From contig MWCM01000012.1 in NCBI GenBank assembly GCA_002070055.1, forward strand, positions 1-42,820: 42,820 nt of DNA, in the 5' to 3' direction. The stretch's first letter is position 1. Every line of letters begins with the position of its first letter. The DNA is from a bacterium ADurb.Bin212. Its GTDB lineage: Bacteria; Patescibacteriota; UBA1384; XYA2-FULL-43-10. A program made the position numbers and the translations under genes. Under the pieces are notes generated by a model. The model was not told the DNA's origin. It was given only the letters and a program-made list of their open reading frames with translations, and searched no databases. Positions 5,168 to 9,098 of this stretch are shown piece by piece.

Positions 5168-5914
5168 GTGACAGAAATTGAACCACAAAAAGAAGTAATT
5201 CAAGAGACAGAGAAGCCGAAAACTAGTTTTATGAAGAGAGCTAAAAGGTCTCAAGCTAAGATAAAAATGGGAATTGGCGGCGTGAGTGGTGGAGGAAAAA
5301 CCTACTCAGCTCTATTACTTGCTGACGGTTTAGTAGGTCTTGATAAGACTGTTGTTATAGATACAGAAAATGGTTCAGCTAATTTGTATTCTGATATTGG
5401 AGAATATTCTGTTCTCCCATTTACTCCCCCCTATAATCCTCAAAGATTTGTAAAAGCCATTCAGATAGCTGTTGATGAAGGATTCCAATGCATAATTATT
5501 GATTCGATGTCGGCAGCTTGGGAAGGTACTGGAGGAATTTTAGATATTCATAATAAATATGGCGGTAAATTTTCCGATTGGGCTAAGGTTATGCCTCTTC
5601 ATAAAGAATTTATCGATGCGATATTGCAAGCTCCAGTACATATTATTGTTACAATGAGAAAAAAACAAGATTACGCAATGGTAGAAAAATCTGGAAAAAT
5701 GGTTGTAGAGAAAATGGGATTAAAAGAAATCCAAAAAGATGGTACTGAATACGACCTCACCTTGAATTTTGATATAGATATAAATCATTGTGTAACTTCA
5801 TCAAAAGATAGAACTGGATTATTTGTAGATAAACCTCCCTTTAAGATTACAAGGGAGACGGGGTTGATAATTAAAAAATGGACCTCTGGTGAGCCAACAG
5901 AAAAGAAAATATAA
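5168..5914 (+). CDS. Sak4/RecA-like phage recombination ATPase
   Basis: A 248-residue P-loop ATPase of the phage AAA/RecA-core family that includes Sak4-type single-strand annealing recombinases. Walker A is GVSGGGKT (residues 38-45), Walker B is CIIIDSMS (108-115), and an acidic strand (FDIDIN) lies near residues 201-206. The start is GTG with AGAGGT about 9 bases upstream. The next gene encodes a single-strand-binding-like protein, which is the usual partner of Sak4 ATPases. Together they probably handle recombination and replication-fork repair. The exact subfamily would need a profile search. Confidence 0.8.
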   Translation: MTEIEPQKEVIQETEKPKTSFMKRAKRSQAKIKMGIGGVSGGGKTYSALLLADGLVGLDKTVVIDTENGSANLYSDIGEYSVLPFTPPYNPQRFVKAIQIAVDEGFQCIIIDSMSAAWEGTGGILDIHNKYGGKFSDWAKVMPLHKEFIDAILQAPVHIIVTMRKKQDYAMVEKSGKMVVEKMGLKEIQKDGTEYDLTLNFDIDINHCVTSSKDRTGLFVDKPPFKITRETGLIIKKWTSGEPTEKKI

Positions 5915-7011: not shown

Positions 7012-7419
7012 ATGATTACGCAGAAATTTTACATCTACTCAGACGACTCATATCATTCTGGATGCGCTAGTTTTTTATCTGAAAATAATGATCTATTTTT
7101 CATTAGACTAAAGGGAGCTAGAAAAGACAGATGTCTACACTACGCTCTATTCTATTGCATAAAACATATTAACCCAATGTTTCCAGCTGAGATATTTACT
7201 CTAGACGACACTATCCATAAACAATTCTTAAAACTATTAGTGCAAAAAGATACAATGGCCTATGCCTCGAATACTCCCCACCAAGACATCTGGTGTCAAA
7301 TATACGATCAAAATAAAAACAGGCTCTCTCACATAGTGTTGACAAAGTCTATTAACACAGAAAATATTGCATTTAAGAAACTAAAAGGAATTTGCGAAAA
7401 GGCGTTGATACAGACTTAA
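7012..7419 (+). CDS. Hypothetical protein
   Basis: A 135-residue protein of unknown function, moderately rich in aromatic residues and cysteine. The start follows the HTH gene stop by 3 bases and has no clear Shine-Dalgarno, so it is probably coupled. The N-terminus (FYIYSDDSYHSGCASFL) vaguely recalls the first strand-turn-strand of RNase H-fold proteins, but the remaining acidic residues are not evident and I do not assign it. It ends in a 4-bp tail-to-tail overlap with the minus-strand nuclease gene. Confidence 0.6.
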   Translation: MITQKFYIYSDDSYHSGCASFLSENNDLFFIRLKGARKDRCLHYALFYCIKHINPMFPAEIFTLDDTIHKQFLKLLVQKDTMAYASNTPHQDIWCQIYDQNKNRLSHIVLTKSINTENIAFKKLKGICEKALIQT

Positions 7420-7910
7420 AAAAGAGGTCCCTCTTCTTGATCTTTATTTTTATCGTAAGGGACTGGAAGAATGGATAGTAGATACTTTTTTCGGTTCTCA
7501 GATATTTTAAAAGCTTCAAGGTATTCTTTTAACATATCAACCGAGTCAACACAGACGGCAAAAGCATTGTGGGATATTTTATCTACTAAGAACTCATGCT
7601 GCTTAGGTCTTAGAGTTTTAAGTTTTCCCTTTGTTTTGACCTCGATATAGAGGGCTAAACCATTTGGAAGACATCCGGCCACGTCACAATGTCCTGGGAC
7701 TATAGATTGAGCAATGTAGCGTTGAGTAATGGGAGAGAATGTGGATTTAGATTCAAATACGTGTGCTGAGCATCCAACAGAGCGCAAGTACTCCATTATC
7801 AGCTCTACTAATTGTTCCTCTGGGTTATTGTTTTTTCTTTTAACCTTAGGAAGATTTTTTGTAGCATGCTTTTCAACAGCCGCTTGTACTCTTTTTTTAA
7901 ACTCAGACAT
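7416..7910 (-). CDS. VRR-NUC / PD-(D/E)XK-type nuclease
   Basis: About 164 residues. The core matches the VRR-NUC nuclease pattern: GHCDVAG with Asp76, then LALYIEVKTKGKLKTLRPKQHEF, giving Glu90 and Lys92 of the ExK motif and a conserved Gln at 104, followed by a hydrophobic strand (FAVCVDSVD). Such proteins cut branched or flapped DNA; some phage versions act as Holliday-junction resolvases. The start is placed at the ATG at 7910, which has GGGG just upstream; an in-frame TTG at 7922 is the alternative. It is the only minus-strand gene in the plus-strand block from 5.2 to 13.2 kb. Confidence 0.8.
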   Translation of the reverse strand: MSEFKKRVQAAVEKHATKNLPKVKRKNNNPEEQLVELIMEYLRSVGCSAHVFESKSTFSPITQRYIAQSIVPGHCDVAGCLPNGLALYIEVKTKGKLKTLRPKQHEFLVDKISHNAFAVCVDSVDMLKEYLEAFKISENRKKYLLSILPVPYDKNKDQEEGPLF

Positions 7911-7965
7911 CCATCCCCACAACCAATATAGTTTGTTGAAACATAATATTTGTAAAGGATTTTAA

Positions 7966-8667
7966 ATGATTTTAGAGACGAGGCTTTGCGAAAAATGCGC
8001 TAAGAAGTTTAAGGTATTAGAAACGTCTCAGCAAAAATACTGCTGTAAGATTTGCGAGACTGGAAATTATCAGGAGAATTACTTTCAATGGAAAGGTCTA
8101 AAGAATCAATCGAAAGACGTAAGAAAAGAGCAAGAGAGCGAGCTAGAGAAAAATACTGGGAAAACGCCACTGAGTCCAGAGCCCAAAAAAGAGCCAGATA
8201 CGCAAGCAACATCGTTAAAGAGCGAGCCCGATCCAAAAATAGATACGAGCGAAATAAAGACGCCTATAACGCTAGAAAAAAACAGTGGGACAAAAGTAAT
8301 AGAGATAAAAAGAACGCAAGTCAGAGGGAGCATTATGAAAAAAACAAATCAAGAATCTGGGAGCTTATCAGAGAAGGAAGGGTTAAAAGAAATCCAACGT
8401 ATGGACTCACCAAAATCATTAGAGACTTCCGAGACGGTAGACTCCCCTTCGACGAGCTTAATAAACGACTCGAGCAAATACTTACTCAATCTAATGAAAG
8501 GGATATTCCAAAACCAACCAGAGCCAGAGATAAGGTCCTATGATCCAGACAAGGTAAAAGCCGCTTGCTTATGTGCTGACCAAATATACAAATTACAAAA
8601 GCTAAAACTAGACAGTATAAAGCTACAAAAAGACTTGCATAGTTATTTTAAGAAAAATAATGGTTGA
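7966..8667 (+). CDS. Zinc-finger protein with disordered linker
   Basis: A 233-residue protein. The N-terminus has a C-x2-C...C-x2-C zinc-finger-like module (Cys8, Cys11, Cys27, Cys30). Residues about 50-160 are a disordered linker rich in Ser, Glu, Lys, Pro and Thr. The C-terminus (about residues 190-230) is a helical region with DPDKVKAACLCADQIYKLQK, similar in style to helical segments of other phage regulators. AAAGGA lies before the ATG. Most of the linker is overlapped, in the -1 frame, by a second 151-residue frame with its own ribosome binding site. The linker's odd composition is consistent with overprinting. Function unknown. Confidence 0.65.
   Translation: MILETRLCEKCAKKFKVLETSQQKYCCKICETGNYQENYFQWKGLKNQSKDVRKEQESELEKNTGKTPLSPEPKKEPDTQATSLKSEPDPKIDTSEIKTPITLEKNSGTKVIEIKRTQVRGSIMKKTNQESGSLSEKEGLKEIQRMDSPKSLETSETVDSPSTSLINDSSKYLLNLMKGIFQNQPEPEIRSYDPDKVKAACLCADQIYKLQKLKLDSIKLQKDLHSYFKKNNG
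8088..8543 (+). CDS. Basic helical protein overprinted inside 7966-8667
   Basis: A 151-residue frame entirely within the preceding gene, read in the -1 frame. It starts at an ATG with AGGAG at 8072-8076 (11-base spacing). It is very basic and helical, with repeats of a Y/W-x-x-N-R/K type (REKYWENATESRAQKRARY, NRYERNKDAYNARKKQWDKSN, REHYEKNKSRIWE). Such repeats usually follow a zinc-finger module in phage HNH-like or DNA-binding proteins, and a zinc finger is exactly what the other frame encodes just upstream. Either this is a separate DNA-binding protein, or an ancestral fusion was split by frameshift. I see no obvious slippery heptamer between them. Confidence 0.55.
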   Translation: MERSKESIERRKKRARERAREKYWENATESRAQKRARYASNIVKERARSKNRYERNKDAYNARKKQWDKSNRDKKNASQREHYEKNKSRIWELIREGRVKRNPTYGLTKIIRDFRDGRLPFDELNKRLEQILTQSNERDIPKPTRARDKVL

Positions 8668-8803: not shown

Positions 8804-8904
8804 TTGGTATGAAGGAAGTTGGGGTAGGCGTAGCAGTCACAGTAGTACTCGCCTTATCTTTATATAAATATGTGAAGGATGTAATTGAGGAGAGCCAGCG
8901 ATGA
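8800..8904 (+). CDS. 34-residue membrane peptide
   Basis: This frame starts at a GTG with AGAGGT about 7 bases upstream (an ATG at 8809 is in frame) and ends at the TGA overlapping the next ATG. It has one hydrophobic stretch (GVGVAVTVVLALSLY) followed by a charged tail ending in EESQR. It is overlapped by 4 bases on both sides, which argues for a coupled operon. Function unknown. Confidence 0.5.
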   Translation: MIGMKEVGVGVAVTVVLALSLYKYVKDVIEESQR

Positions 8905-9098
8905 AATATTTAATGTTAGTTGTTACCTGTTTAATAGCAACAGGGTGTAGTCAAAACACTCCAAGTAACTTAAAAAAACTAGATGAACTAAATGAAGAAT
9001 GCTCAAAAGAGTGTGCGCCGAGAAAACACACTACAATTAAGTTTCAGTTTCTTGATCTTACTAACTCTTGCACTTGTATAGTAGATCAAAAACTATGA
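8901..9098 (+). CDS. Small lipoprotein
   Basis: A 65-residue protein with signal peptide MKYLMLVVTCLIATGC. The lipobox IATGC predicts lipidation of Cys16, and the +2 residue Ser favours the outer membrane in Gram-negative cells. The mature part is about 50 residues with four further cysteines, two in a CTC pair near the C-terminus, so disulfides are possible. GAGGAG precedes the ATG. Small phage lipoproteins made early can block superinfection at the envelope, but nothing here shows this directly. A spanin role is less likely because it is far from the late lysis genes. Confidence 0.65.
   Translation: MKYLMLVVTCLIATGCSQNTPSNLKKLDELNEECSKECAPRKHTTIKFQFLDLTNSCTCIVDQKL

Follow-up and report, generated by a model that had tools for sequence, protein, structure and literature searches.

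Known nested genes and finger-repeat proteins

The closest described counterparts of the locus reported here are phage HNH/endonuclease VII proteins, in which a zinc finger, repeats and an HNH nuclease follow one another in one frame. The phage proteins compared in this study include f2b1 (QIA28523.1), Streptomyces phage TunaTartare gp203 and Vibrio phage NVP1240O_37; four such proteins (f2b1, the TunaTartare protein and two from Vibrio phages) begin with a Cys-rich N-terminus and carry the repeats after it in a single frame, which agrees with the statement in the initial annotation that basic repeats of this type are usually fused to zinc fingers. At the locus described here, a 151-residue inner protein shares the repeat length (15 residues) and the repeat pattern of these phage proteins, and as in them a zinc finger is encoded 5' of the repeats. 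However, the finger is not in-frame before the repeats and sits instead in the frame of a longer, outer gene, its CxxC spacing is shorter, and the HNH or endonuclease VII nuclease domain that was sought after the inner repeats gave no match.

Overprinted nested genes are known from other viruses, including lambda (Rz/Rz1) and phiX174, where a gene with its own start is contained entirely within another gene and read in a different frame. The same arrangement is seen here, although the proteins are unrelated to those of lambda and phiX174, a domain pair that is usually fused is divided between frames, and the overlap is read from one sequence. Approximately 30% of annotated viral overlaps consist of one gene wholly inside another (PMC7017920), and an enrichment of disorder-promoting residues has been reported for overlapping genes (PMC6195259).

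Source contig and phage context

The window, meaning the whole stretch of 42,820 nucleotides that was analyzed, is contig C12 of a genome bin of 1.22 Mb and 74 contigs (bacterium ADurb.Bin212). The contig carries genes of a contractile-tailed phage, including those for a tail sheath, a fused prohead protease-capsid protein and a large terminase with 52% identity to the Wolbachia phage WO terminase; the nearest matches of the terminase are Wolbachia WO, an IMG/VR fragment (70%) and a Silvanigrella phage. Tetranucleotide profiles of the phage contig and other contigs of the bin show a correlation of 0.40-0.43, compared to 0.89-0.92 for those contigs among themselves. The phage contig may have been wrongly binned with a small-genome bacterium. 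Two recombination-type genes neighbor the locus:

5168-5914: RecA-like ATPase
7416-7922, minus strand: nuclease-like gene (phrog_93 endonuclease, E 8e-10; weak VRR-NUC match)

The nuclease-like gene is divergent from the outer gene, on the opposite strand, and has no close relatives. Just 3' of the locus is a short lipoprotein-like ORF (8901-9098) whose signal ends in TGC and which is possibly the spanin of a lysis cassette. Farther along the contig (40996-42156, minus strand), an ABC-type ATPase half is fused to a GNAT acetyltransferase domain, an unusual combination, and its neighbor at the end of the contig is a ParB-like gene.

Two long overlapping frames

The overlapping genes and their features are as follows:

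7966-8667, plus strand: outer gene, 233 codons (233 aa), with a zinc finger, a disordered linker and a helical C-terminus (open frame, AAAGGA 5' of ATG 7966, AF2 model)
7987-8055, plus strand: zinc-finger motif CEKC-x14-CCKIC, outer residues 8-30 (from sequence; weak PHROG matches to phrog_2308 and phrog_3794)
8073-8077, plus strand: AGGAG ribosome-binding site of the inner gene (from sequence; duplex -7.4 kcal/mol)
8088-8543, plus strand: inner gene, 151 codons (151 aa), -1 frame, strongly basic and helical (open frame; single-sequence AF2 model, pLDDT 81, mostly helix)
8145-8369, plus strand: five tandem 15-residue basic repeats, inner residues 20-94 (profile from Vibrio phage HNH proteins)
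8544-8667, plus strand: outer-only C-terminus, predicted helical (41 codons open past the inner stop; AF2 helices 194-212 and 218-230)

Both frames, the start site of each, the repeat match and the absence of stops in both are seen directly, and the description in the initial annotation of two long overlapping frames, the outer beginning with a zinc finger and the inner basic, helical and furnished with its own AGGAG, holds in all these respects. The chance of finding a CxxC-x10-20-Cx2-3C motif within any 40-residue protein start is approximately 0.2%. In a single-sequence AF2 model of low overall confidence, the outer protein has helices at both ends and disorder across residues 65-166, and charged residues, Ser and Pro are abundant in its linker. 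A search for family matches to the outer C-terminus returned none that was significant, leaving this region without a recognized family.

The inner frame is open from position 8049, where a stop at 8046-8048 closes its upstream side, and runs from ATG 8088 to the stop codon at 8541-8543. Its ribosome-binding site is stronger than 97% of the sites at all plus-strand ATGs in the window. A repeat profile built from only two Vibrio phage proteins matched inner residues 20-94 with a z of 9.5 (equaled in 0 of 3000 shuffles) and found no match in the outer frame. Among PHROG families the repeat region matched phrog_7091 (E 0.00095), while further matches to the repeats were mostly annotated phage HNH or endonuclease VII proteins. 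A 45-base periodicity is seen in the repeat DNA and, less strongly, in the outer frame. Duplication of the repeats, with the inner frame the conserved one, would produce this pattern. On sequence grounds, the inner frame is a real protein sequence, and its product is probably a nucleic-acid-binding arm lacking a nuclease domain. A structure search with the inner AF2 model gave no significant match. The inner N-terminus (ERRKKRARERAREKYWENAT, positions 8088-8170) may resemble the arginine-rich motif found in lambda N-type antiterminators. Taken with the neighboring recombination-type genes, the zinc finger and basic repeats suggest nucleic-acid-binding roles for both proteins.

No full-length relatives of either protein were found in IMG/VR, in phages, or among genomes sampled from the class and phylum of the bin and from alphaproteobacteria. 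Likewise, GTDB contigs yielded no relative of the outer protein, plasmids no relative of the inner protein, and phages and genomes carrying a related terminase no relative of either. Neighbor genes used as bait recovered nothing, and a zinc finger-repeat chimera used as a query matched repeats only. These searches returned only weak repeat matches or chance hits, among them L086, in a high-GC contig, and L167, near a ribosomal S1-like protein's lysine-rich tail.

Double openness and codon choice

Over the overlap, the two frames are both open beyond chance (for the outer frame, p 0.00015-0.001 under genome-usage nulls and 0.13 under within-gene permutation), and the third frame contains 21 stops. 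When the outer protein was held fixed, the inner frame was open in a 1e-4 fraction of codon permutations made within the gene and in 0 of 20,000 draws from genome usage. When the inner protein was held fixed, the outer frame was open (150 codons without a stop) in 0.015% of draws from genome codon usage, in 0.13% with third-base composition matched, and in 13% of within-gene permutations, a null that leaves the unusual codon set of the inner gene in place and therefore hides the effect under test. No other same-strand nested ORF in 215 kb of low-GC sequence is as long as the inner ORF, and the runner-up has 132 aa. In the related repeat genes, the +1 frame, which is the same alternative frame, contains 9-16 stops, with a longest open run of 56 codons.

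The outer frame is kept stop-free through codon choice. Stops in this frame can arise only at inner codons with a middle T and a final purine, and the inner I/L/V codons end in a purine in 2 of 18 cases, compared to 9.1 expected (p 0.00026); both of these purine-ending codons precede a pyrimidine. No equally extreme deficit was observed in 253 segments of other genes, and inner codon choice is normal for the A/R/G/P/S/T, K/E/Q and two-fold pyrimidine families. In the mirror test, outer T-ending codons before AA/AG/GA number 0 in the overlap, where 13.5 are expected, and are normally represented in the flanks of the same gene. Since the locus was chosen for openness and the tests for the most part express that openness again, they describe how the frames stay open and do not provide an independent p-value. 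Codon-likelihood support for the outer frame was strong at first, vanished once inner amino-acid composition was controlled, and was discarded.

Origin of the overlap

Genuine dual coding is the best reading of this locus (probability about 0.7), with two overlapping genes carried on one transcript and initiated independently. Ribosomes at AAAGGA-ATG 7966 would make the 233-aa protein of zinc finger, disordered linker and helical C-terminus, and those at the internal AGGAG-ATG 8088 would make the 151-aa basic helical protein with its tandem 15-residue repeats. The ancestor may have been a one-frame zinc finger-basic repeat protein in which the frame changed between finger and repeats; the repeats would have retained their frame through a new start codon, and their out-of-frame reading would have become a linker joining the zinc finger to downstream coding sequence. 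An older frame change is the likely origin of the overlap. The fuller proposal, that this change split a fused finger-repeat protein, leaving the repeats to be internally initiated and their out-of-frame reading to be recruited as a new disordered linker, is tentative, at somewhat less than even odds. Because the recognized repeats are in the inner frame, this frame is regarded as the older one in the overlap, and the outer middle, which is disordered and has no homologues, is taken as the overprinted part; as modeled, a disordered outer overlap atop a helical inner protein is the usual picture of overprinting. Translation of both frames and the order of events are what we infer from these features. 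Counted against dual coding are the within-gene permutation result, the failure of codon likelihood to support the outer frame, the lack of a family for the C-terminus and the fact that, among the relatives found, none has both frames open.

The initial annotation offered dual coding or a recent frameshift. The first of these gained from the repeat match, the avoidance of stops and the separate start sites, while the second, as a recent mutation or assembly indel between 8049 and 8145 that split one finger-repeat gene and left the rest of the outer frame functionless, is the main rival. A one-frame fusion is the architecture of the four related proteins, finger and repeats occur here in the fused order, and purine-rich repeat DNA is stop-poor (permutation p 0.13). 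However, a recent split is unlikely, since the openness of the long outer frame and of its tail would then be accidental; several low-probability events are needed, namely the openness of the overlap (0.00015-0.13), the 41 further outer codons staying open beyond the inner stop (0.01-0.07) and a strong start site falling at the new inner ATG (0.03).

Less probable still is programmed -1 frameshifting, by which translation from the outer start would produce a finger-repeat fusion alongside the outer protein. In its favor, the inner frame has the required -1 phase, but an in-phase slippery heptamer and stable structure were sought at the frame junction and not found; the sole heptamer, A_AAA_AAC at 8277, is in phase but lies inside the repeats instead of before them, its downstream fold reaches only -0.4 kcal/mol, and frameshifting would not need the inner gene's own strong start site. 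Slightly less probable again is that the outer gene alone is made and the inner frame is an untranslated relic of overprinted repeats. An overprinted frame can keep traces of an older one, and inner-frame expression is deduced here from the DNA only; however, a dead frame of 150 codons should gain stops, the outer T-ending codons that would admit them are absent (0 versus 13.5 expected), and the repeats and start site of the inner gene are intact.

At this locus a single sequence suffices to show the likely direction of overprinting, since one frame carries a recognizable repeat family and the other is kept open by codon choice in a single codon class. Annotation often overlooks long nested same-strand genes, and proving them in tailed phages is difficult. 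Should both products be made, the locus would show how a new gene can arise from a change of frame while the old one is kept, and if the frame-change reading is true, it would be a clear case of overprinting triggered by a frameshift.
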